A stretch of DNA of 20,384 nucleotides, from positions 1-20,384 of the forward strand of contig JAUVLC010000041.1 of NCBI GenBank assembly GCA_030595925.1. The letters are read 5' to 3'. A model generated the notes under the pieces. That model did no database searches. It was not told where the DNA came from and saw nothing but the letters and a program-made list of their open reading frames with translations. This document shows positions 4,930 to 19,024 of the stretch, piece by piece. Every line of letters begins with the position of its first letter. Positions within the stretch are counted from its first letter, which is position 1. Source of the DNA: Clostridia bacterium (GTDB lineage: Bacteria > CBDUZB01 > JAGLHV01). The position numbers were made by a program, and so were the translations under genes.

Positions 4930-7900
4930 CTACATTTTTCTTTTTACTTTTTTTATGAATTCTTTTATCTCCGTATCTCCGGAATCCAGACTAAGAACCC
5001 TTTCCCATTCAGATATAGCACGTTTAAAATCACCTTCTCGATAGTAACAAAATCCTATAGCATAAAAAAGATCCCTGCTTCTATCTACAGGTTTAACCCC
5101 TTGTGCAATATTATCCATTATTTTGTCTATGTACGTAACATATCTCTTTGAGTCATTCACTATTTTTTTATCATCCGGACCAAGACTTAATATCTGACTA
5201 TATTTATCATAAGCCGTAAGCCATCTTTTGTCTTTAAAATCTTCTTTTGCCTGAGAAGAGAGAACCTTACATTTTCGCTTTATTTCTTCAGCTTCTTTTT
5301 TAGCAATTTCTCTATTAACTTTGGCAAGATATTTTAAAGCTTTCTTATTAGTTGGATTAAATTTTAATAATTTATTTAACGTTTTACTTGCTTTTACCCA
5401 TTTACCCTTTTTATAATATGCAATCCCTTTCTCTAAAAGTTTTTCTTTATTTTTGAAAATCACGGCTAAAAAAACATCTATCTTAACTTCTTTATCCCCC
5501 CAGTTTAAAGCCTTAGTTACTTCCACCGCTTCATATTCTTTTTGTTTCCCAACTTTTATTTTATATTTACCAGCCTTTAAAATTTTTTTCCAAACACCCT
5601 TTTCGTTTGTCTGCCCTACCCATTTATTGTTAAGCAAGATATATGCATTATGAATATCATATTCATTTGCTATGTCTTTAACTACTACCTTTAACAAAAT
5701 AGGTTGCGGTTTCAATATTGCCTTAACAACTTTTTTATCATTAATATCAATTTTAAAAGAACGACTTTTATATTTAGGCAATTTTTTAAAGGTTACATCA
5801 TAACCTTTAATAAGCAACGGGTATTTAAAAGGAGTCTTTTTGCCATTTATTTTCGTTCCCTTTATATATACGCTGGCATTAATATCTTTTTTGTTATTTC
5901 CCTTTCCATAAGCATAAAAATAAACCCATTTTTTAAGAACCGGATTAATACTTACTTCTGTTTCTGCATTAACCTTAATTGTACCTGCCCACGGCGAAAA
6001 GTCCGGTTTTTCTAATTTTATTTTATATTCTCCTATTTTAATACTAATTTTCTGAGGAGTAGTCCCCCATGCAGTCTTTGAATCATCTACATAAATAGCT
6101 GCCCCCGGAGGAGAAGAATCAAGTGATATTTCTTTCCAAAAAGTTCCCAGTAAGGTATAATTTAGTAACCCATCATCAATAACAGATGAATTTATATCCC
6201 AATATCTACGATCTATCCCTTCCTGGTCGGACGCATCTTTGACAAGATTGATATTGCACTGTCCCCGCATAGTAACCTTTTCAATATTCCCTAAATCATT
6301 GAATCCATCCATAACTAATTTAACAGTGTGTTCTCCCACTTTTATATTTTGAATTAAAGGAGTTTTTTCAGGCAATTTTTTCCCATCAATATAAATTTCC
6401 GCACCTTCAGGTAATGAACTAATTTCTAAACCAATCTCAAAAGGAATAGCAATTAAATTCATCTTGTTTTTCTTGTCTTTATCTGCAGTATCAACTCCAT
6501 CAAGTTTAATGTCCTGTTTTCCTTTTTCAATCCCAAATACCGTTATCCTGCGTTCAATATCGTTATATCCTTCTTTTTTTAATATTAAAGTGTAATTACC
6601 GGGTAAAATTTTTGAGATATAAACCGGTGAAAAAGCATTCTTTTTTAACACATTTTTCATATTATCATTAACAAGAGAAACAGATGCCCCGGAAGGAAGA
6701 GTATCAATACTAAGAGTAGGAGGCCAGAAAAAATTATATATTTTAGTTCCTAAAGAAGTCCAGTGTTGAAATGTATCCAGAGCCACAAAACCAATTACAC
6801 CGATTAATAAACCTAAAGAGACCCTAATAATCATTTTTTTATATCTATTAGCTGTGTCCAAAACAAAATCAAATACGGTTTTCTCTCTTGCTTCTCCCTC
6901 TACCTCTACTTTTTTCCTTTCAACCTTCTTTTTAATTTTCTTTTCACCTTCGCTTTTTTCTAGTTTTATCTCTTTTTGTGTTTCTTTTATTTCTTCAATT
7001 TCCGGTAAAACAAAAGATGGTTTTTCTTTTGCCGGTAAATCATTAACTTCCACTTCTTTTTTTACAGTTGTTTCTTGTTCAATTGCTGCTCGGCGAGAAC
7101 GATTACTCTCTTTTTTTGAATTTTCTTCTTCTTTTTTTATTTCTCTTTTTAAATTTTCATGTATGAACTCTCTAAATTCACCCTGTAACATATGAGAATA
7201 TTTTTTTCGCTTATGAAGATATTCCTGTAAATCAACAAATACATCTTCATCATGTTGATATCTTTTTTCTCGATCTTTCTTTAAAGATTTTGTTACTATT
7301 CTCGTTAAGTTGTCAGGAACCCCCACATCTTTTAAAAGTTGTAGATTTACTTTGCCTTTTTTTACTTTTTCCCAAATATCATAATCAGTAGTACCTTCAA
7401 ACGGCCATTGCCCAGTTAATAATCGATATAAAACTATTCCTATAGAATAAATATCAGAACGATAATCCAACTCAACATCTCCCGTCGCCTGTTCAGGAGA
7501 CATATATGCAACCTTTCCCCTTAATGCTCCCTTTTTTGCCTTGGCTATATAACGGGTAGTTGCTTTAGCAATTCCAAAATCGGTAATTTTTATTCTCCCG
7601 TCAAAATAAATCATAATATTCCCGGGAGAAATATCACGGTGAACAATCCCCAACGGCTCTCCTGTAATTTCATCTACTTTAGAGTGAGCATATTTAAGTC
7701 CCTTTAAAACTTCACTGATAGTATGCGCTGCTAAATCAAAAGATATTTTTTTATCTTGTTTCTGGCATTTTTCAAGAAGGTCAAACAAGTTACAACCTTT
7801 AACATATTCCATAATGATATAGTAGATATTATTAACTGTTTTTAAAAAGTCAATAACTCTGACAACATTTTCATGTTCCAATTTAGAACTATTAACCGCT

Positions 7901-9168
7901 TCATCTCTAAACATATCCAGAAATCTAGCTTCCTGGGAAAAAGATTTGTGTATTTTTTTAACCGCAACGAATTTTTCCAGGTTTATTGCCCACGCTTTAT
8001 AAACAGAAGCAAATCCTCCTATTCCTATTTCTCTAATTATATGATATCTATTTCCACTTGTTTTCAAAAATTCTTTTGTTATTTGTTCAAGATTTTCTTT
8101 TGCTTCAATAGAAACAATCTCTTCACTTATTTCATCCTCTCTTTCTATTGCTTTTCCTATTGCCTCCTCTAATTGGCTGGCAGAAACAGGTTTTACTAAA
8201 CAGGCATTAGTATAATCTCTTATTTCCCCTTCCAACTTTTCCTTAGAAAAGGCATCAATTAGAATTATAAAATAAACGTCTTTATCAATATCCCTAAGTT
8301 CCTTAATTGTCGATAACCCATCCCCATCAGATAATTGATAATCAACGACTATCACATTGAAGAGAGTTTTACTAACCTTTTCAATAGCTTTTTCCCGGGT
8401 AGAAACACAACTAACAACACAGCCCTTCTTTCTTAAAATGTCAGATAAAAAGCCCATTGATTGGGGATCATTATCAACTATCAGTATATTTTCGCCTCCA
8501 TGCTTAAATTGATCAAAACCTTTTTCTTTTTTCTTATGCATTTTCTTCTCTTTAAACTCCTCAGCAATTTTTTTCTCTTCCTTTTTCTTTATCTCTTCCT
8601 CTTTCTTCTCCTCAGCGACTTTCTTCGCTTCCTCTTCTTTCCTGCGTATCTCTTCCTCTTTCTTCTCCTCAGCTACTTTCTTTGCTTCCTCTTCTTTCCT
8701 GCGTATCTCTTCCTGCTTCTTCTCTTCAGCTACTTTTTTCGCTTCCTCTTCTATCCTGCTAATTTCTTCTTCTTTTCGTTTCTCAGAAAATTCGCCCTTT
8801 TCCTCTTTTTGTTTCATTGATTCTTTCTTGAGCATTTCAAAAAGGTTGCCTTTTTTATTATCTTCTTTTTTTTCTTTCTCCAGTTCTATAGATATTTCCA
8901 TTTTTTTTTGTTCTTCATCCATCTGTCCCATTTCTCGGTCCCTCTCATTTTCTTCCTCTAATCCCGGTATCGGCCTATCAGAAATACAACGATCACACTC
9001 AGAAAGAATACTATCCCGATCAATTTTATATTTATCTCTCACTTCATCAATTATTGCCTCTCGCCCGGAAGAAATAGCAAAACAACATTCAAAGCAAACA
9101 TTACATTTAATAATCGGACATAAGATGACTCTATCTGTCTGCTTATTACATAACTTACACTTATCCAT
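4930..9168 (-). CDS. Membrane Ser/Thr protein kinase with receiver, PEGA and TPR domains
   Basis: This 1412-aa protein is probably a Hanks-type kinase spanning the membrane once. Domains (residues from the chosen start): nine Cys in the first 61, including CKLC, CNVC and CDRC; a Lys/Glu coiled region with three 19-residue repeats at 137-193; a receiver domain at about 226-340 with D232, phospho-acceptor D276 and K326; a kinase domain at about 375-650 with glycine loop GIGGFASV (382-389), K404, HRDISPGN (510-517), DFG (530-532) and MSPEQ; a charged linker; a membrane helix at about 779-798; PEGA domains near 818-890, 911-975 and 1013-1078; two more beta domains to about 1233; and TPR-like repeats at 1242-1410. 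The catalytic residues appear intact. The ATG at 9168 is chosen over one ten codons upstream because TTAGGAGGGAATGGG precedes it. It follows the PP2C gene by 53 bp, so the pair is probably co-transcribed. Confidence 0.9.
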   Translation of the reverse strand: MDKCKLCNKQTDRVILCPIIKCNVCFECCFAISSGREAIIDEVRDKYKIDRDSILSECDRCISDRPIPGLEEENERDREMGQMDEEQKKMEISIELEKEKKEDNKKGNLFEMLKKESMKQKEEKGEFSEKRKEEEISRIEEEAKKVAEEKKQEEIRRKEEEAKKVAEEKKEEEIRRKEEEAKKVAEEKKEEEIKKKEEKKIAEEFKEKKMHKKKEKGFDQFKHGGENILIVDNDPQSMGFLSDILRKKGCVVSCVSTREKAIEKVSKTLFNVIVVDYQLSDGDGLSTIKELRDIDKDVYFIILIDAFSKEKLEGEIRDYTNACLVKPVSASQLEEAIGKAIEREDEISEEIVSIEAKENLEQITKEFLKTSGNRYHIIREIGIGGFASVYKAWAINLEKFVAVKKIHKSFSQEARFLDMFRDEAVNSSKLEHENVVRVIDFLKTVNNIYYIIMEYVKGCNLFDLLEKCQKQDKKISFDLAAHTISEVLKGLKYAHSKVDEITGEPLGIVHRDISPGNIMIYFDGRIKITDFGIAKATTRYIAKAKKGALRGKVAYMSPEQATGDVELDYRSDIYSIGIVLYRLLTGQWPFEGTTDYDIWEKVKKGKVNLQLLKDVGVPDNLTRIVTKSLKKDREKRYQHDEDVFVDLQEYLHKRKKYSHMLQGEFREFIHENLKREIKKEEENSKKESNRSRRAAIEQETTVKKEVEVNDLPAKEKPSFVLPEIEEIKETQKEIKLEKSEGEKKIKKKVERKKVEVEGEAREKTVFDFVLDTANRYKKMIIRVSLGLLIGVIGFVALDTFQHWTSLGTKIYNFFWPPTLSIDTLPSGASVSLVNDNMKNVLKKNAFSPVYISKILPGNYTLILKKEGYNDIERRITVFGIEKGKQDIKLDGVDTADKDKKNKMNLIAIPFEIGLEISSLPEGAEIYIDGKKLPEKTPLIQNIKVGEHTVKLVMDGFNDLGNIEKVTMRGQCNINLVKDASDQEGIDRRYWDINSSVIDDGLLNYTLLGTFWKEISLDSSPPGAAIYVDDSKTAWGTTPQKISIKIGEYKIKLEKPDFSPWAGTIKVNAETEVSINPVLKKWVYFYAYGKGNNKKDINASVYIKGTKINGKKTPFKYPLLIKGYDVTFKKLPKYKSRSFKIDINDKKVVKAILKPQPILLKVVVKDIANEYDIHNAYILLNNKWVGQTNEKGVWKKILKAGKYKIKVGKQKEYEAVEVTKALNWGDKEVKIDVFLAVIFKNKEKLLEKGIAYYKKGKWVKASKTLNKLLKFNPTNKKALKYLAKVNREIAKKEAEEIKRKCKVLSSQAKEDFKDKRWLTAYDKYSQILSLGPDDKKIVNDSKRYVTYIDKIMDNIAQGVKPVDRSRDLFYAIGFCYYREGDFKRAISEWERVLSLDSGDTEIKEFIKKVKRKM
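8590..8760 (-). repeat. Three tandem 57-bp repeats inside the kinase gene
   Basis: Three consecutive in-frame 57-bp units encode copies of RRKEEEAKKVAEEKKEEEI, the first slightly diverged and a degenerate fourth following. The protein segment is a highly charged helix, likely a coiled coil or single alpha-helix separating the Cys-rich N-terminus from the receiver domain. Near-identical DNA between units suggests recent expansion or ongoing homogenisation, so copy number may vary between strains. Confidence 0.85.
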
Positions 9169-9221
9169 CCCATTCCCTCCTAATATTTTCACAAACACCT
9201 TATTAACTCAAACAGAATCTT

Positions 9222-10733
9222 TTATTCAATGACAATGCTTTTAATTTCATCCAGGGCAAGAGAAAAATTTTTTATCCACAAAATTTCGTTCCCTTTTGCA
9301 ATTTTAATAGAATGATTTCCTACTGCCAAATCTTTTGTTTGAATCACACGCAATTGTCCGATATCCAAACTTAATCGTTGATTATCTATATATATTTCCG
9401 CACCCGGAGGTAATTCCTTTTCAAATCCTAAAACAAAATTAATTTGTGCCTGAGGAACCAAGGTTTCACAAATCTTAATTTCATCATTCGCCACAACAAA
9501 TACATTGACACTTCCGTCCTTGTAATCAATCCTTTTCAGGGTTATTTTATAAGATTTTTCTCTCCTCTCCGGTAAACTTATTTCTGTAGGAGTTCTTTTT
9601 AATAATTTTAATCCATCGACAAATATTATCGCTCCAGGTGGAATAGAATTAATTTTCACCTTGCCGGAAATAATTTCTTCTTTAGTAAATGAAACATTTT
9701 TTACTTTTTCTTTTTTCTCAGGATTTTTCCACAACAAAACAACAAGTACCATTAAAAAACTAAGAAACAAAACAATCCCACTAAACAACAAAGGATTGTG
9801 CCATCTTTTTTTCTTATTTAATAATATCCCTATTTTTTCATCATCCGCTTCACTATACATCTTTGCCAATAATTCATCTTCCAATTGTAAAACCGCACTG
9901 TCTTCTTCGGGTATTATGATCATCGGTTCAAAAATATTGTTCTTTCGATTAATTATTCCCTTTTTATCATTTTTGATCATTAAAACCTCAACAGAAATAT
10001 TATCAGGACCTCCTTTTTCATTTGCTAAATCAATAAGCCTTTCACATAATAAATTTATATCTCCTTTTGATTCGACAACTATTCGACAAATTTCTTCATC
10101 TTCTACCACTGCAGTAAGACCATCGGAACAAAGAATAAACAAATCATTATTGAGAAGAGGTTCTATTTTTACATCTACCTTAACTGTTTGTTTTGTTCCC
10201 AGGGCACGTGTAATTACATTTTTTTGCTTAAAATTTTTAGCTTCTTCCTCATTTATTTCTCTATCTTGAAGTAGTTCATTAACCCATGAATGATCTTGCG
10301 TTAACCTTTCTATACTTCCTTTTCTTACTCTATAAATCCTACTATCACCTACATGTGCTATGCAAATATCATTCCCATCCAGAAACACTGACACAACAGT
10401 CGTTCCCATACCACGCAAATAAGGATATTTAACAGCAAGTCTAAATATTCGACGATTAGCAAGACGAATTGCTTCAACTAAATTGCATGCGTTAGGTGAA
10501 AGAGCAAACCCCTTCAACTCCGGACGTAAGGAGTAAAAATTTTCATTTTTTATTAGTTTTATATAATTTATAACTGTCTCTACCGCTACAGCACTGGCTA
10601 AATCGCCTGCCGCCTGCCCACCCATCCCATCACAAACAAGATAAAGGTCTTCTTTTGCATATTCCCCTATCATATCTTCATTTAAAGAACGTTTTTTTCC
10701 CACATCAGTTCTGGAAGCCATTCTCACCAACAT
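9222..10733 (-). CDS. Membrane-anchored PP2C Ser/Thr phosphatase with two PEGA domains
   Basis: This is a metal-dependent (PPM/PP2C) protein phosphatase of 503 aa, likely removing phosphates placed by the kinase encoded next to it. The catalytic domain covers residues 1-255, with the motifs RSLNED (15-20), CDGMGG (34-39), GMGTT (108-112), AHVGDSR (126-132), LCSDGL (201-206) and GGPDNIS (241-247), so the metal-binding aspartates are present. A charged linker leads to one membrane helix at about 314-335. Two PEGA-type beta domains follow, IPPGAIIFVDG at 364-374 and LPPGAEIYIDN at 441-451. The catalytic part should be cytoplasmic and the PEGA part extracytoplasmic. AAAGGAGAAG precedes the ATG. 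The kinase gene follows after 53 bp. PP2C fused to PEGA domains is an uncommon layout as far as I know. Confidence 0.93.
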   Translation of the reverse strand: MLVRMASRTDVGKKRSLNEDMIGEYAKEDLYLVCDGMGGQAAGDLASAVAVETVINYIKLIKNENFYSLRPELKGFALSPNACNLVEAIRLANRRIFRLAVKYPYLRGMGTTVVSVFLDGNDICIAHVGDSRIYRVRKGSIERLTQDHSWVNELLQDREINEEEAKNFKQKNVITRALGTKQTVKVDVKIEPLLNNDLFILCSDGLTAVVEDEEICRIVVESKGDINLLCERLIDLANEKGGPDNISVEVLMIKNDKKGIINRKNNIFEPMIIIPEEDSAVLQLEDELLAKMYSEADDEKIGILLNKKKRWHNPLLFSGIVLFLSFLMVLVVLLWKNPEKKEKVKNVSFTKEEIISGKVKINSIPPGAIIFVDGLKLLKRTPTEISLPERREKSYKITLKRIDYKDGSVNVFVVANDEIKICETLVPQAQINFVLGFEKELPPGAEIYIDNQRLSLDIGQLRVIQTKDLAVGNHSIKIAKGNEILWIKNFSLALDEIKSIVIE

Positions 10734-10801
10734 AAAATCTTCTCCTTTTATACTATTTAACCATTAACTTCTATTTAAAAAAATTTAACTCAATGAGACT
10801 T

Positions 10802-10833
10802 AGAGTTTTTGTCAGCATAGCTGAAAAAACTCT
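10802..10833. repeat. Hairpin-forming inverted repeat upstream of the PP2C gene
   Basis: AGAGTTTTTGTCAGC (10802-10816) pairs with GCTGAAAAAACTCT (10820-10833) around a three-base loop, with one bulged G. The stem is about 14 bp. No T tract follows on either strand, so it does not look like a standard intrinsic terminator. It shares the core TCAGCATA with the palindromic repeats just downstream in coordinate. Confidence 0.7.
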
Positions 10834-10863
10834 GTAGTAGAATTAACCCTGATAACTTTAGCT

Positions 10864-10927
10864 GAGTTTATCCTGAGCACTTCGCTTTGCTCAGCATAAA
10901 CTCAATCAAAGGGCTCAGCATAAACTC
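10864..10927. repeat. REP-like palindromic repeat with an extra direct copy of one arm
   Basis: GAGTTTATCCTGAGCA (10864-10879) and TGCTCAGCATAAACTC (10888-10903) form a 16-bp stem with a single C-C mismatch and an eight-base loop. The arm GCTCAGCATAAACTC at 10889-10903 is repeated exactly at 10913-10927, and a short TCCCT/AGGGA hairpin follows at 10926-10938. The composition is more GC-rich than its surroundings. The core (GAGTTTATCCTGAGC) resembles interspersed intergenic palindromes common in environmental genomes; that comparison is from memory. It fills much of the 339-bp gap between the FHA and PP2C genes. Confidence 0.75.
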
Positions 10928-10971
10928 CCTTGCAGGGAACTGAATGGTCTCGAATTTAATTATACCGTATC

Positions 10972-11076
10972 TTACTGCTTAAAAGTTATGTGGGATAAAT
11001 CTTCAATTTCCCGCAATTTGCTAAGAGACAGTTGATTTCCTTTAAACAATGTCCTAATTTTATCCAATAGAATCAT
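10972..11076 (-). CDS. Small ORF (34 aa) overlapping the FHA gene stop
   Basis: A 34-codon frame starts with an ATG that shares four bases (ATGA) with the stop codon of the FHA/propeller gene. The upstream AAAAGGGGA would serve as a very close ribosome binding site, so expression could depend on translational coupling. The peptide begins MILLDKIRTLFKG, is mostly helical-looking and mixed-charge, and has no signal peptide or membrane segment. No family is recognised. It ends just before the palindromic repeat cluster and may be a real small protein, a remnant of a longer gene broken by the repeat insertion, or chance. Confidence 0.35.
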   Translation of the reverse strand: MILLDKIRTLFKGNQLSLSKLREIEDLSHITFKQ

Positions 11077-13328
11077 TCCCCTTTTCCTTTTTTTTCAAAT
11101 AAAATGGGAGGCCTTTTTTCTTTTTTTCTTTTCATAATAAACAAGTTAGCAAAGACCGTTATTAATACTAAAAAAAATCCTTCCGTAAATTTAATAATAA
11201 AAGGAAGTACTTTGTTTTCAAAAGAATACCTTCCCGAATGCCGTGGATTGGAATGGAACATCGGCCAAACCAACTGGTTTTTAAATACTTTTGTGTTAGT
11301 TGAATAAACCCCTATTTTATTATCCATACGACTACACACAATATCAAGATAGCCATTTCCATTCACATCCCCTACCACAGGAGAAGAAGTGATGGGAATA
11401 GATGAAATTTTTTCTTGAAATAAAAGACGGTTTACCCTATCAGGAAGATTAGTTCTTCCTCTCAAAATATATAAATTGCCGTCTTCATTACCAATTATTA
11501 TATCTGCTATTCCATCTTTATCCATATCAGCTAATGCAGGCGAAGAAATTATTCTATTTTCTATCCCTGTATCATATTTCCAGAGAAGCTCTCCGGAACT
11601 ACCCTTTATTGCAAATATACACCCATTACAACTAGCAACAACAATATCCAGGTTGTTATCTCCGTCTAAATCCGTTAAAACCGGTGAAGAATAATAAAAA
11701 GGAGAAATTTTTTCCGAAATAGGTTCGATATAATAAGGATCCCAGAGCAATTCTTTAACATCCCCTCTCACCACTGATACATAATATTGTTTATCGGCAA
11801 TTACAATGTCCGGAACTTGATCTCCGTCTAAGTCCCCCTCGGCTGCCGTAGGAGTTATTTCGTTAAGTGGTAAATAAATACCTAAATTTTTATTTATCAC
11901 TTCCGTAAGATAAACAACATTTTCTATTTCCGATTCATTATCAAAAAAATACAATTTACCTTCAATAGTTCCAATAACCGTTCTTGCCTTTCCTCCATCT
12001 AAAAACACCATAGGTGAAGAATAAATATTCCCCACCACATTCCTTTCTTCTATTCTATTTTCATTAAGAGGAGAATAAATAAAATAAACTGTTCCCTGTT
12101 CAGAACAAATTACTACATCCAACCAGCCATCCTGATTTAAATCATACACTACAGGTGAAGAACGTAAATCCCCCCCTAATATTTCACTTTTATAAATCAA
12201 TTTACCCGTAGGTCCATCTATAATGTAAAGGCAAGAGTCATTCGAACCAATAACAATATCTTTAGCCCCATCTCCATTTATATCTACTATTGAAGGGGAT
12301 GATATTATTTTAGTCCCTATTCTAAAAGGCTCTTCCCATATTTTTTCTCCTGTTTTGCCATTCCAGGCATAAAGATATCCACCTGTTGTAGCAAGAATAA
12401 CTTCATTTTTTGTATTTCCGGTCAAATCTCCTATTCCCGGAGAAGAAGTAATTGCATAAACATCCTCCGAAGAAAAATAATCGGGAGTTTGCTGTAAAAT
12501 CTCCCTTTCTTCATCCGTTTTGAAAGTCACAAGGAGCCTCATAGAAAACACATCAGGTTTGCTTTTGATTATACCGTACCCTCTCATTCCATAAAAAAAC
12601 AAAAACAATCCCGCTAAAATAAGTGCTCCCGATAAAGCCTTAAAAAAAGGATTCTTAAATCTAACTAAAAAAATCCCCGCACTTTTAGGAGGGGAATAGT
12701 CATTACTTTCTTCCTCTACAAACCTGAAAATCGTACGGCCAATTAAAATTTCGTCCTTAGGTTGCAAAACAATTGCTTCATCTTCCCCTACTTCTTTTTT
12801 ATTAACAAATGTCCTATTTCTACTTCTTTTATCGGTTAAAACATATTGACCGTCCTGAAAAGTAATAGTCGAATGTCTTCGTGAAACACTGGGATCAACA
12901 TTTCCCCAAAGAATAACTTCATTAAAAACATCACTCCTTCCTATTCTTGTTTCACCGTGTTCTAACTCATACTTTTTGCCTTCGAAAGCGCCATAAATAC
13001 CCAATAAATTATATGATTTTGATTCCTTTTTTCTCCTTTGAACTTTTTCTCTTAAAAACAAAGAATAATGGCCTATCCCAACTTCATCATTAACCCTCAA
13101 AGGACAGGTTTCTATTTTTTTTCCGTTTACCATTGTTCCATAAGCAGTTTTTAAATCCTGAACGACAAACCCATCGCCTTCTTTTTTTACTATACAATGC
13201 TGCAAGGAAACAACCTTATCCTCAATTTGAATATCACATTCTTCAGCATTACCTATAACAATCTGCCGATCACGCAAAATACATTCCAAAATAATTTCTG
13301 CTTTCTTTTTTAACACTAATTTAAACAT
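11073..13328 (-). CDS. Twin-FHA membrane protein with FG-GAP/VCBS beta-propeller
   Basis: This 751-aa protein joins phosphothreonine-binding domains to an extracytoplasmic propeller. FHA1 spans about 1-95 and FHA2 about 105-205; FHA2 has the full pattern RIGRS (128-132), SRRHS (149-153) and NRTFVN (171-176), while FHA1 is more diverged (IVIGNAEE, SLQH, TMVNGK). A membrane helix lies at about 228-248. Eight FG-GAP-like repeats follow between 293 and 677, most starting SSP and many carrying acidic calcium-type loops such as DINGDGAKD, DLDGDQVPD and DVNGNGYLD. WPMFHSNPRHSG (688-699) resembles a motif common at the ends of such propellers. A second helix (about 708-732) returns the Lys-rich tail to the cytoplasm. 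AGGGGGA precedes the ATG. It lies between the SLH gene and the PP2C-kinase pair, so its FHA domains probably read kinase output. Confidence 0.92.
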   Translation of the reverse strand: MFKLVLKKKAEIILECILRDRQIVIGNAEECDIQIEDKVVSLQHCIVKKEGDGFVVQDLKTAYGTMVNGKKIETCPLRVNDEVGIGHYSLFLREKVQRRKKESKSYNLLGIYGAFEGKKYELEHGETRIGRSDVFNEVILWGNVDPSVSRRHSTITFQDGQYVLTDKRSRNRTFVNKKEVGEDEAIVLQPKDEILIGRTIFRFVEEESNDYSPPKSAGIFLVRFKNPFFKALSGALILAGLFLFFYGMRGYGIIKSKPDVFSMRLLVTFKTDEEREILQQTPDYFSSEDVYAITSSPGIGDLTGNTKNEVILATTGGYLYAWNGKTGEKIWEEPFRIGTKIISSPSIVDINGDGAKDIVIGSNDSCLYIIDGPTGKLIYKSEILGGDLRSSPVVYDLNQDGWLDVVICSEQGTVYFIYSPLNENRIEERNVVGNIYSSPMVFLDGGKARTVIGTIEGKLYFFDNESEIENVVYLTEVINKNLGIYLPLNEITPTAAEGDLDGDQVPDIVIADKQYYVSVVRGDVKELLWDPYYIEPISEKISPFYYSSPVLTDLDGDNNLDIVVASCNGCIFAIKGSSGELLWKYDTGIENRIISSPALADMDKDGIADIIIGNEDGNLYILRGRTNLPDRVNRLLFQEKISSIPITSSPVVGDVNGNGYLDIVCSRMDNKIGVYSTNTKVFKNQLVWPMFHSNPRHSGRYSFENKVLPFIIKFTEGFFLVLITVFANLFIMKRKKEKRPPILFEKKGKGE

Positions 13329-13388
13329 TAATCCCCCTGCTTCTTTAAAAAATAACTGTCTTTAAATATTTTTTTATAAACATTATTT

Positions 13389-14255
13389 TCATTTTCTCTT
13401 TTTAGCATTAATTTTGCGAACCTGTCTATCTAAAACTTTTTTGACTTTGCGGGAATTTTTAAGCATATTGGCAAACATATCCTCTCCTATCTCTTCACTA
13501 AGTTCTTCCAATAAATTCATTTTTTCTTTCACCGCAATAAATTCCGCCTGTATCTTTTTAGGAATAGGAATGTTGCCCATTAATCGAGGCAAATCCTTCT
13601 TGATTTCTTTAATAATTTTTTTCATATCCACTGTGCCTCTTACCCTGCTTGATGATGAAGAACCCTTATCCAATACTTCACAAACTTCTTTTCTTATCAC
13701 CATTTTAACCTGGGGAGAAGTACGAATAATCCGGGCAATTGCCCCCACACTGGTCTTTCCTCCACTTTTTCCTGCACTTAAAGAATCCACTTTTTCTTCT
13801 AATAAGTCAAACCTCTCTTCAGTTTTTTGAGTTAAAGACCCGCCTTTTGCCAATAAAGGTAATTCTTTTCTAATTTTAGATAGTATTATATTCATATTTC
13901 CTTTACCCACTCCACCTTTTTGCAAAACAGCCAGCTGCTGTTTTGTTTTATTTAATTGGGCAGTTAAACTACGCATTTTTTTGTCCAATACTCTCTGATA
14001 TTCCATTAAGGTACGGGTAAATTTATCATACTCATAAAGAGCCATAATCAAATCTTCTCTTTTTATTGTTGCTGTCGGACGAAAATACCCTTTTCCATAT
14101 TTGCCAATAAACCCATTTAATACTCCGTTTGTTTTAAAATTTTTAATTACATTTTTAACCTTAGGGCTCACGTCTTTATACTCCTGAGCATTAAGTCTAA
14201 TTGGTACACCCACCAAACTTAACACAATCGCTGTCTTTAATATCATTTGTTTCAT
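13389..14255 (-). CDS. Secreted SLH-domain coiled-coil protein with internal duplication
   Basis: This is a 288-aa envelope protein of unknown specific function. It starts with a signal peptide (about 1-23, ending RLNA before QEYKDV). One S-layer homology domain follows (about 25-75: YKDVSP, NGVLNGFIGKYGKGYFRPTATIKREDL), a type known to bind cell-wall polymers. Residues 78-112 look like a coiled coil. The remainder contains two related segments. IRKELPLL...ERFDLLEEKVDSL (about 128-159) matches IKKDLPRL...AEFIAVKEKMNLL (about 218-249), and SPQVKMVIRKEVCEVLD (180-196) matches SRKVKKVLDRQVRKI (268-282). AGGGGG precedes the ATG, and a clear promoter lies just upstream, making this the first gene of the signalling cluster. 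It is a candidate wall anchor or ligand for the sensors that follow. Confidence 0.8.
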   Translation of the reverse strand: MKQMILKTAIVLSLVGVPIRLNAQEYKDVSPKVKNVIKNFKTNGVLNGFIGKYGKGYFRPTATIKREDLIMALYEYDKFTRTLMEYQRVLDKKMRSLTAQLNKTKQQLAVLQKGGVGKGNMNIILSKIRKELPLLAKGGSLTQKTEERFDLLEEKVDSLSAGKSGGKTSVGAIARIIRTSPQVKMVIRKEVCEVLDKGSSSSSRVRGTVDMKKIIKEIKKDLPRLMGNIPIPKKIQAEFIAVKEKMNLLEELSEEIGEDMFANMLKNSRKVKKVLDRQVRKINAKKRK

Positions 14256-15502: not shown

Positions 15503-16752
15503 CCCCCTTTTCGCATCCTTCTTTGCAAAAGAAATTCCTTAAATAGTTTTTCGTATTTGGTTATACAAACATCCCGGGAAAAGTACTTTTGGACATACAT
15601 CCTTCCCTTTTTACCTAACTCCGCTCTTAAGATAGAATCATTATATAATTTCATAAGGGCCTGTGTCAACATTTGTGAATTTCCCGGTTCAACACAAAGC
15701 CCACATCCGGCCTCTTTAATAAGACGGATAGCATCCCCCTCAAAATTCATACTGGCAATTAAGGGACGGGCACTACTCATAATAGATACAATTTTAGAAG
15801 GAACTACCGGTGTTTTAACTTCTCCTTTGAGAGTAACCAGACAAACATCCGAAGAATCTAAAACAAACGGATATTTTTCTCTGGATTGAAAAGGCAAAAA
15901 TTTTACATTATTCAAATTATTAACTTTTACTTTTTTTTCTAACTCCGCTTTTTTAATCCCTCCCCCCACCAGAAGAAATAATATTTTCTTACAATCCCTT
16001 AATTGTAAAGCACTTTCCATTATAATTTCCATATCCTGAGAATATCCCATTACCCCTACAAAAGAAACTACAAATTTATTATCTAAACAATGCTCTTTTC
16101 GAAACAGATTAAATTTATTTGAGGGTTTTATTAAATCCGTATCCACCCAATTAGGAATAACTGCTACTTTGTGAGAACCGGCACCATTATCAATTACATA
16201 TTTTTGATTACCCGGTGAATGGACGGTAATAAAATCTGCTCTTTTATAAATAAATTTCTCTATGGTTTTAAAAAATTTAATCAAATACTTATTTTTTAAA
16301 ACACCCAGATCTACCGCACTCCGGGGAAATAAATCCTGAACATTAACTCCCATATAACTTTTTTTCATCTTACCCAAAAAATATCCGGAAACTCCTAAAG
16401 GAAGAGGGGGTGAATAAAGAAAAATAAAATCACAAGAAGCAAAAAACAGACCGGCAAAAAAAATAAACAATGCAGTAATAAACTGATTTAATCCTTTAAA
16501 TACAGGAACATTTCCGGAAAAAAACGGCATTCTTAATCTAACAACTCTAATCCCGGCAATTATTTCCCGTATCAAAAACTTACCCTTATAAAAATTAACT
16601 GTTTTTTTATCAACATTATACCTGGGAAAACCCGTAATTACCGTAACATTATATTTTTTTTTGACTAAACTCTCTGCAAGCTCATAAAAAAGGTGAGAAG
16701 CAGAACCAATTTCAGGAGGAAAATAAGCCGTCAATAATAATATTTTCATCAT
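15499..16752 (-). CDS. GT4 glycosyltransferase, WbuB/WcaI-like
   Basis: This is a 417-aa GT-B fold glycosyltransferase, probably transferring a sugar from a nucleotide donor to a polysaccharide intermediate at the inner face of the membrane. The N-terminal domain starts MMKILLLTAYFPPEIGSASH and contains a hydrophobic patch around 92-112 typical of membrane-associated GT4 enzymes. VNVQDLFPRSAVDLG (137-150) is characteristic of the WbuB-like subgroup. The donor domain contains VIPNWVD (198-204), FVGVMGYSQD (231-240) and VVPSKIVSIMSSARPLIA (316-333). It overlaps the preceding oxidoreductase gene by ATGA and the following epimerase gene in the same way, so the three are likely co-translated. Acceptor and donor are unknown. 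Confidence 0.92.
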   Translation of the reverse strand: MMKILLLTAYFPPEIGSASHLFYELAESLVKKKYNVTVITGFPRYNVDKKTVNFYKGKFLIREIIAGIRVVRLRMPFFSGNVPVFKGLNQFITALFIFFAGLFFASCDFIFLYSPPLPLGVSGYFLGKMKKSYMGVNVQDLFPRSAVDLGVLKNKYLIKFFKTIEKFIYKRADFITVHSPGNQKYVIDNGAGSHKVAVIPNWVDTDLIKPSNKFNLFRKEHCLDNKFVVSFVGVMGYSQDMEIIMESALQLRDCKKILFLLVGGGIKKAELEKKVKVNNLNNVKFLPFQSREKYPFVLDSSDVCLVTLKGEVKTPVVPSKIVSIMSSARPLIASMNFEGDAIRLIKEAGCGLCVEPGNSQMLTQALMKLYNDSILRAELGKKGRMYVQKYFSRDVCITKYEKLFKEFLLQRRMRKGG

Positions 16753-18905
16753 TTTTTCAAAATTTCTTCCAATTCTATTTTAACACACTTTCCAACTTTA
16801 AGAGAATCCAACGCTTTAAAAGTAGCTAAGGTTGTATACAAATATTGCTTAAAAAGTTTTTCCTGATCAAATATCCCCGAATCAAAAAAATAATTTAATT
16901 CATTAATATAACCCAAATCCTGAGAAAGTTTAACAATCTGTTTCTTTTTGTTTCCTCGAACTATTATTAATTTTTTAAAATCTTTTATGGTTGCCACCGA
17001 ATCTTCGGAAAAAATTTCTACCCGCTCTCTGGAAAAAGCTCTGGATCCTTTTGTGGTATAAACAATGGTTCCTACCGAACCATCACAAAAATACATAGTT
17101 ATGCAAACATTATCAGTCTCATGATATTTACCCCGGTGACCTCCAACAGATTCAACATATATTTTTTGGGGATAAGCATCAGTAATAAATTGAAAAAAAT
17201 CGATGAAATGGCAGACCTCCCCAATAATCCTTCCACCGCTAATTTTTACATTATTCACCCAATGCCCATCAGCAACATTTCCTGCATTAACTCTATAATT
17301 CATCATCAGTGCCGTACTTCTTTCCTCCCAACAGGACTTAGCTTGCATAGCTAAAGAACTAAATCTTCGATTAAACCCCACCATTAATCTCTGCTGTGAC
17401 CGGCTAAATATTTTTACTATCTGTTTCAATTCATTAATATTAATACACAAAGGTTTTTCTACAAAAACATTTTTCCCTGCTTCCAGAGCATCTATAATCA
17501 TTTTAGAATGGAGATTATGAGGAGTAGAAATAATAATACTCCCTATCGATTTGTCATCTAAAATCTCTTTATAATCTGAGCAACAATAATTGAATCCGAA
17601 TTTTTTCCCTATCTGTTGTGAAGATATCCCTTTAGTGGTAGCTATACCTACCAGATTTACTTTATAAATTTTTCTCAAAGCCGGCAACAAAATATTCTTA
17701 GTAAAATTTCCTCCTCCGATAAATCCAACATTTAATGCAGGAAACTGTTCGTTACTGATTTTTTTTATAAAAGACACTTTTGTTTCTTTTTCACCGTTAT
17801 TAATTTTTAAATTATTGTTATATTTAAAAACAATCCCTATATGCATTTTTTTCTTTTTAAGAATCATGTCATAACACTTTAACGCTTCTTCTATTTCAAA
17901 GTAACGGGTAATTAATTTATCCATTTTTACTTTCTTTTTTATTAAAAGATCAATAAAGTGCCGGACATTATTTTTCTGACTCCAACGACTAATTTCCGGT
18001 GGATAATCATTTTCCTCACCTGCTGCCCTGGACACAATAAATAATAATTCTTTTTCCCAGAAAATTTTTCTGGTTAATTTTAAATCAGCTACACCGACTA
18101 AAACTATTCTTCCTTTTTTCCGGGCAATATCTTCTGCTAATCGAACAGGCTTTGCATCATTACTTGCCGCAGTAATCATCACTGCATCAAAACCGTTATT
18201 ACCGGTAAAATTTTCTATCCTGGACAAAACATCATCGCTATCCGCATTTAATCCTAAATCAACGCCTAATTCTTCAGCCAATTTTACTTTATCTTTATCT
18301 AAGTCAAGACCAACAACCCTACATCCGTAAGATTTTAAAATTTGGACGGTAATTAACCCAATTAATCCCAAACCAATCACGGCAACATTTTCACCAAAAG
18401 TTAAATCAGCTTTTCTTATCCCGTTAACAGCAATTGCCCCGATCATCCCAAAAGATGCTGATTCAAAATCCAGTTCATCTGAAAACTTATTACATAAATT
18501 CTCCGGCATCCATATATATTCCGCATGAACGGCAAATCCTGCTCCGGCACAAACGACCCTATCCCCAACCTTAAACCCCTCAACCCCTTCACCTATTTCT
18601 ACTACCTCACCACTTGAACTATATCCCATCGGTATCGACTCATCCAAACGATTCATCGCCTCTTTAAAAACACTTATAAACCCTTCTCTTAATGCTTTTT
18701 GATAAGCTAATCGAACCAGATCCGGGCGGGCAACAGCCTTGCCCAATAAACTTTTTTTCGCCATATCAATCATTAATCTCTCGGTCCCTATGCTAACCGC
18801 AGAACAGATATTACGCACTATCACCCCCCCTGATTTACAAAAAGGAGGAGAAACTTCTTCTAATTTTATTTTACCTGTTCTATAATTCTGAACAACCTGC
18901 TTCAT
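16749..18905 (-). CDS. Bi-domain oxidoreductase (MDR + Gfo/Idh/MocA fusion)
   Basis: This 718-aa protein fuses two NAD(P)-binding enzymes. Residues 1 to about 360 are a medium-chain dehydrogenase-like domain with VSIGTERLM, MGYSSSGEVVEIGEGVEGF and the Rossmann VIGLGLIG at 176-183. The catalytic zinc ligands of ordinary alcohol dehydrogenases (the GHE motif and CxxC lobe) are absent. Residues about 390-718 are a Gfo/Idh/MocA domain with VGFIGGGNF (393-401), VEKPLCI (482-488) and GEVCHFIDFF (562-571). This fusion is known as bi-domain-containing oxidoreductase and typically sits in surface-polysaccharide loci, as here; its reaction is not established. The ATG at 18905 is chosen over an upstream in-frame ATG because AAGGGA precedes it and the family starts MKQVVQ-like. 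It is the first gene of the glycan operon. Confidence 0.9.
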   Translation of the reverse strand: MKQVVQNYRTGKIKLEEVSPPFCKSGGVIVRNICSAVSIGTERLMIDMAKKSLLGKAVARPDLVRLAYQKALREGFISVFKEAMNRLDESIPMGYSSSGEVVEIGEGVEGFKVGDRVVCAGAGFAVHAEYIWMPENLCNKFSDELDFESASFGMIGAIAVNGIRKADLTFGENVAVIGLGLIGLITVQILKSYGCRVVGLDLDKDKVKLAEELGVDLGLNADSDDVLSRIENFTGNNGFDAVMITAASNDAKPVRLAEDIARKKGRIVLVGVADLKLTRKIFWEKELLFIVSRAAGEENDYPPEISRWSQKNNVRHFIDLLIKKKVKMDKLITRYFEIEEALKCYDMILKKKKMHIGIVFKYNNNLKINNGEKETKVSFIKKISNEQFPALNVGFIGGGNFTKNILLPALRKIYKVNLVGIATTKGISSQQIGKKFGFNYCCSDYKEILDDKSIGSIIISTPHNLHSKMIIDALEAGKNVFVEKPLCININELKQIVKIFSRSQQRLMVGFNRRFSSLAMQAKSCWEERSTALMMNYRVNAGNVADGHWVNNVKISGGRIIGEVCHFIDFFQFITDAYPQKIYVESVGGHRGKYHETDNVCITMYFCDGSVGTIVYTTKGSRAFSRERVEIFSEDSVATIKDFKKLIIVRGNKKKQIVKLSQDLGYINELNYFFDSGIFDQEKLFKQYLYTTLATFKALDSLKVGKCVKIELEEILKK

Positions 18906-18939
18906 TGTTTTTTGTCCCTTATCCCAAAATTCAATCCGT

Positions 18940-18968
18940 ATAATATATTTACTTATACAAAAAAACAA
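18940..18968 (-). promoter_or_regulatory. Candidate promoter of the glycan operon
   Basis: On the minus strand TTGTTT (18968-18963) and TATTAT (18945-18940) are 17 bases apart. The -10 is good and the -35 weak. The predicted start near 18933 would give a leader of about 28 nt before the chosen ATG at 18905, which itself argues against the longer upstream start. The region is very AT-rich, so chance matches are likely. Confidence 0.35.
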
Positions 18969-19024
18969 CTCAAAAATCAATCAAATTATATTAGAAAAAC
19001 AAACCCTGTGATATAAAAAAATAA

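Follow-up and report, generated by a model that had tools for sequence, protein, structure and literature searches.

The locus raises the question of whether four neighbouring genes, which encode an SLH-like coiled-coil protein (SLH-cc), a membrane protein with two FHA domains (the reader), a PP2C-type phosphatase and a large membrane kinase, act as one circuit of threonine phosphorylation spanning the cell envelope. The best-known loci that group a kinase, a phosphatase and an FHA protein are those of Actinobacteria and of T6SS clusters. Judging from the sequences, we would put the probability that the four genes make up one such circuit at roughly 0.7. A single trans-envelope phospho-signalling unit had already been proposed in a preliminary description of this DNA, and the proposal is well supported by gene order, by the neighbourhood in a second phylum and by a paralogous reader-phosphatase-kinase cassette. 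The further suggestion in that description, that the circuit senses the wall or S-layer, is a guess.

Four genes on one strand

The window, that is the whole stretch of 20,384 nucleotides analysed here, carries four long open reading frames (ORFs) within positions 14255-4930, all on the minus strand and in the transcription order SLH-cc, reader, phosphatase, kinase. Five genes had been counted in the preliminary description: the four large ones stand, and the fifth, a 34-aa ORF on the same strand (10972..11076), is probably not a gene, having no Pfam match and no counterpart in either congener, where reader and phosphatase genes are separated by shorter gaps of 114 and 155 bp. In the window the gap between these two genes is long because a dispersed repeat (10745..10970, unstranded) sits inside it. 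The repeat has 72 matches in the genome, many of them short and on both strands, and is no part of the module; on contig 74 another copy separates the FHA gene from the kinase gene. A promoter scan found 44 sites as against 41.4 in shuffled sequences, which is no excess, so that no operon boundary can be claimed.

On the upstream side the module is flanked by three genes of sugar metabolism and on the downstream side by rpsF, ssb, rpsR, a DUF2232 gene, rplI and dnaB (the sugar genes, rplI and dnaB were named by reading their sequences). The sugar-gene group includes an apparent fusion of a zinc-alcohol-dehydrogenase-like and a Gfo/Idh-like oxidoreductase (16749-18980), which is syntenic in the congeners.

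Among the proteins encoded in the genome is one of Omp85/BamA type (E=6e-65), and the cell therefore has an outer membrane, i.e. it is diderm. In such a cell the periplasm is where the sensor parts would lie, together with the SLH-like protein. The sensor parts had been described as lying 'outside'; their predicted location is the periplasm rather than the cell surface.

The reader (11073..13328, minus strand, 751 aa; identified by ORF, Pfam and prediction of transmembrane segments, TMs) is built as FHA1-FHA2-TM-FG-GAP propeller-TM, with TMs predicted at residues ~228-246 and ~707-735. Both FHA domains (FHA1 at 13071-13262, FHA2 at 12738-12950, both on the minus strand) are over the Pfam cut-off (E=2e-32), and the propeller is recognised as FG-GAP_3 (E=1e-28). 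The twin-FHA reader of the preliminary description is thus correct as to its two FHA domains and its propeller, with a canonical phosphothreonine site in FHA2 only. Specifically, the phosphothreonine-binding Gly, Arg, Ser, His and Asn of FHA2 are all kept in 34/34 aligned proteins, while the Arg of FHA1 is replaced by Ser, Asn or Lys in every alignable protein (33/33), the other canonical residues of FHA1 being kept in nearly all. Since the canonical site is invariant in FHA2 and FHA1 lacks its Arg, FHA2 is the likely phosphothreonine reader; for FHA1 a structural role or one in protein-protein contacts is more likely. Such a pair, with one phosphothreonine site strictly conserved and the other consistently altered, is unusual. 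The propeller has seven FG-GAP-type Ca loops. The predicted structure of the reader is of low confidence and usable only in part of the propeller; in a Foldseek search its best matches were BamB propellers at ~15% identity, with other propellers scoring nearly as well. The resemblance to BamB-type periplasmic propellers thus comes from a low-confidence model, and the reader differs from them in its FG-GAP Ca-type loops and in being joined via a TM to FHA domains.

The phosphatase (9222..10733, minus strand, 503 aa; identified by ORF, Pfam and NCBIfam) had been called a membrane PP2C phosphatase with PEGA domains, and it is one: PP2C (PF00481, E=3e-14) and PEGA (E=4e-8) are over their Pfam cut-offs, and a TM is predicted at residues 315-333. 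It also scores 250.6 bits against the NCBIfam Stp1 profile NF033484, over the cut-off of 230. The metal-site residues, including the metal-binding Asp, are invariant in 35/35 aligned relatives; profile and metal-binding Asp residues together place the protein among PP2C/Stp1 phosphatases.

The kinase (4930..9198, minus strand, up to 1422 aa; identified by Pfam, TM prediction and the congener copies) may truly start at an ATG 10 codons further in. It consists of a Cys-rich N-terminus, a coiled coil, a receiver domain (REC), the kinase domain, a TM (residues 789-807), three PEGA domains and TPRs. The giant membrane kinase with PEGA and TPR domains that had been announced is therefore present, with Pkinase, the three PEGA and TPR all over the Pfam cut-off; the earlier domain list was right as far as it went, but had overlooked the REC and the Cys-rich N-terminus. 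The kinase domain (7252..8046, minus strand) matches PF00069 with 159.5 bits (cut-off 31.7) and has the catalytic Lys, Glu, HRD Asp, Asn and DFG Asp (K414, E433, D522, N527 and D540) of a Hanks-type Ser/Thr kinase, residues that are kept among aligned relatives. REC (8158..8487, minus strand; residues 238-347) is found with PF00072 at E=5e-14 and 52.9 bits, over a cut-off of 30.2. Its acceptor Asp and its Lys are present, with Asn in place of one acid-pair residue and Asp at the Thr/Ser position; lacking these two residues, it may not be phosphorylated in the normal way.

Two other parts of the kinase have similarities elsewhere. The Cys-rich N-terminus (window ~8980-9170) resembles a stand-alone 72-aa protein encoded at another place in the genome (L055:5052-5270; 31% identity), for which Pfam has no family. 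The TPR tail (4933-5466) is closest to the TPRs that a likely outer-membrane/TPR protein of this genome carries (E=2e-12), and next closest to the product of the gene that follows REC in the second phylum; this similarity is weak evidence because TPRs are generic.

SLH-cc (13389..14255, minus strand, 288 aa; identified by ORF, profile and neighbourhood) appears to be a secreted or periplasmic protein, with a signal-peptide-like N-terminus, an SLH-like part at ~residues 26-80 and a coiled coil. As a secreted SLH protein, which it had been called, it is only partly borne out: the match to Pfam SLH is sub-threshold (14.9 bits, E=0.026, cut-off 20.8), but the conserved N-terminal family is real. 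Indeed, a profile built without the window's genus finds the N-terminal domain at E=1e-13, so that the family can be taken as real and linked to the module. Among the relatives, 4/17 match Pfam SLH at E<0.1, and a paralogue just reaches the cut-off of 20.8. AlphaFold predictions for three sequences reached a pLDDT of 38 and the model was not used. The relatives end in a short hydrophobic tail, which the window copy lacks. An SLH-like paralogue in the window genome (L053:4451-7519) adjoins PorV-like and secretion-tail-like genes, an arrangement that also occurs directly upstream of the reader in several second-phylum genomes.

OmpM carries a single SLH domain in each chain and forms trimers through a coiled coil (PMC10628300). 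Like OmpM and SlpA, SLH-cc has an N-terminal SLH-like domain, one per chain, followed by a coiled coil, and by this analogy it may be a trimeric stalk that binds the cell wall. It differs from them in its sub-threshold SLH match and in having no C-terminal outer-membrane barrel: Pfam finds no outer-membrane beta-barrel family in the 288-aa protein, which sets it apart from an OmpM-type tether.

Gene order within the genus and in a second phylum

Conserved gene order in relatives had been named in the preliminary description as the check on a common module, and it was found within the genus; in a second phylum it is the neighbourhood that is conserved. In both congeners the order is SLH-cc, reader, PP2C, kinase, with SLH-cc adjacent upstream of the reader; in one of them the remainder of the kinase is on another contig, which also carries rpsF and the genes next to it. 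The sugar genes upstream of the module are, however, syntenic within the genus too, so that congener synteny alone is weak evidence, and it is from these flanking genes that the notion of adjacent genes working separately, as chance or inherited neighbours, draws what support it has.

The same genome holds related gene groups. Contig 17 carries an FHA-FHA-TM-propeller gene followed by a PP2C gene and a kinase-TM gene, and copies of this cassette occur in both congeners. Its phosphatase lacks TM and PEGA and its kinase has a TM but no PEGA, which implies that periplasmic sensing by these two proteins is not essential to the core. The two cassettes of the window genome are paralogous and are therefore not independent events. 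On contig 74 a third FHA gene adjoins a kinase gene. In a census of the genome, FHA domains are found in 3 genes and PP2C in 2, each beside a kinase gene.

The contig 17 cassette contains no SLH-cc, and SLH-cc was accordingly considered as a possible bystander, a view overturned by the second-phylum loci described below. Outside the window's genus, a search of 386 genomes found the full-length reader in just two genomes, which share nothing but domain rank with that genus. Within the phylum of these two, presumably Elusimicrobiota (Endomicrobia-like), the reader is present in 42/294 sampled genomes belonging to five families. Neighbourhoods were counted in 36 loci of this second phylum, the denominators being the loci with a readable flank. 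A PP2C-TM gene is directly downstream of the reader in 35/36 loci, and a stand-alone REC gene comes next after it in 32/34. The SLH-like coiled-coil protein is encoded upstream of the reader in 27/35, which upholds its earlier listing as a member of the set; in one genus, and in a few other cases, it does not adjoin the reader. A PEGA kinase is encoded further upstream in 22 of 36 loci, and in two more once additional upstream sequence was fetched.

The arrangement is not that of the window. In the second phylum the kinase gene is ahead of the reader, whereas in the window it is last; REC is a separate, canonical protein there, whereas in the window it is fused into the kinase and degenerate; and the flanking genes are different. 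That the set stays together despite a changed order is stronger evidence than fixed synteny. When long TM-type PP2C proteins are defined by E at or below 1e-85, they occur in 41/42 reader genomes and in 0/252 other genomes of the second phylum, and the lone reader genome without one has a degraded cassette. The hypergeometric probability of this co-occurrence is 2e-49, a value that overstates the independent evidence since the genomes are related; at the family level, reader and long PP2C are found in the same five families. Recurrence in a second phylum with different flanks and internal order, the paralogous cassette on contig 17 and the near-perfect co-occurrence of reader and long PP2C largely refute a mere neighbourhood of separately working genes, which we would regard as very improbable. 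On the sequence evidence, the set is a real, co-inherited module.

In one small-genome genus of the second phylum (L152, L153, L154) several species have a cassette that is frameshifted or decayed, and there are near-complete genomes in this genus with neither reader nor long PP2C.

Several second-phylum loci carry further genes: PorV-like and FlgD_ig/secretion-tail-like genes directly upstream of SLH-cc, and a PorV-like/TPR gene after REC. The Pfam matches to PorV and to the secretion tail are below cut-off. The flanking genes could mean that the circuit regulates an outer-membrane or secretion apparatus, controlling the PorV-like and secretion-tail (type IX-like) proteins encoded alongside it, as would the SLH-cc paralogue that sits with such genes in the window genome, and a precedent for control of secretion by a kinase and an FHA protein exists in T6SS (PMC3953482). 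We nevertheless think this decidedly unlikely, as the window itself has no PorV-like or secretion-tail genes, the PorV and secretion-tail matches are sub-threshold and there is no T6SS. It concerns the output of the module and is not exclusive of an explanation by one circuit.

Proposed circuit and known systems

If the four genes form one circuit, the PEGA domains of the two enzymes and the reader's propeller with its Ca loops would be periplasmic and close to SLH-cc, which may be a trimeric stalk, and would sense the state of the cell wall and outer-membrane space. Altered engagement of these domains would shift the balance between the cytoplasmic kinase and PP2C activities. The phosphothreonine, which would probably arise in the juxtamembrane region of the kinase itself or in a substrate nearby, would be bound by FHA2 of the reader; this binding would gather kinase, phosphatase and propeller at one site and couple the periplasm to a cytoplasmic response, with REC as an input or scaffold arm. 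A more specific version, possible but tentative, is an envelope-surveillance complex present in at least two phyla, in which propeller and PEGA domains would physically read the SLH-like stalk and the PorV-like proteins, and phosphothreonine on the kinase would recruit the membrane-anchored reader through FHA2, thus reporting wall or outer-membrane attachment to the cytoplasm.

The actinobacterial pknA/pknB-pstP-fhaA/fhaB locus encodes a membrane Ser/Thr kinase, a membrane PP2C and FHA proteins and is wall-related (PMC6554272). These three kinds of protein are encoded together here as well, but the module has PEGA instead of PASTA, lacks rodA and pbpA and belongs to a diderm host; its reader is anchored in the membrane and bears a propeller, and it adds REC and the SLH-like protein. 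The likeness of grouping (PMC6554272) could be read as pointing to a core reader/PP2C/kinase circuit for growth or division, a diderm counterpart of PknB-PstP-FhaA/FhaB with the SLH-like protein as a mere neighbour, and both the paralogous cassette without SLH-cc and the genus in which SLH-cc is absent beside the reader would fit such a role. It is an unlikely one: the window contains neither PASTA domains nor rodA, pbpA or division genes, SLH-cc adjoins the reader in most of the second-phylum loci, and the reader is absent from most second-phylum genomes, near-complete ones included, so that it is not a universal growth factor. The kinase scores 272 bits against NF033483, under the cut-off of 450, and Pfam finds no PASTA domain in it; with different neighbours besides, the locus does not belong with the PASTA kinase (PknB/Stk1) wall loci.

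In the T6SS threonine pathway, which comprises PpkA, PppA and Fha, phosphothreonine is bound by Fha (PMC3953482). Here, too, kinase, PP2C and FHA reader are encoded together in a diderm cell. The reader of the module differs, however, in its tandem FHA domains, two TMs and propeller, as does the module in its PEGA sensors and SLH-like partner, and the sheath gene VipB is absent from the five genomes searched, which places the module outside T6SS. The way the module works would be analogous to that of the PknB/PstP/Fha locus in mycobacteria and of the T6SS threonine pathway, while it is a member of neither.

A search of open-access literature found no description of this module. Its build differs from that of the known kinase-phosphatase-FHA loci, and it is linked with an SLH-like envelope protein and, in the second phylum, also with outer-membrane proteins; it is co-inherited in bacteria for which this literature yielded no account of such a circuit. 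The few proteins that it names are candidate partners, open to experiment, in the sensing of the envelope by these cells.

A reading as a defence system was also considered and not adopted. Comparison with the PD-T4-6 and MADS defence kinases gave kinase-domain matches only, mostly to kinase residues 380-720 and mainly generic, and no matches for the reader or SLH-cc. Another kinase-like gene (L045:2376-7649) encodes a very large protein of 1757 aa, in whose sequence kinase, AAA-like, GAF and histidine kinase parts can be read, and is preceded by a receiver gene.
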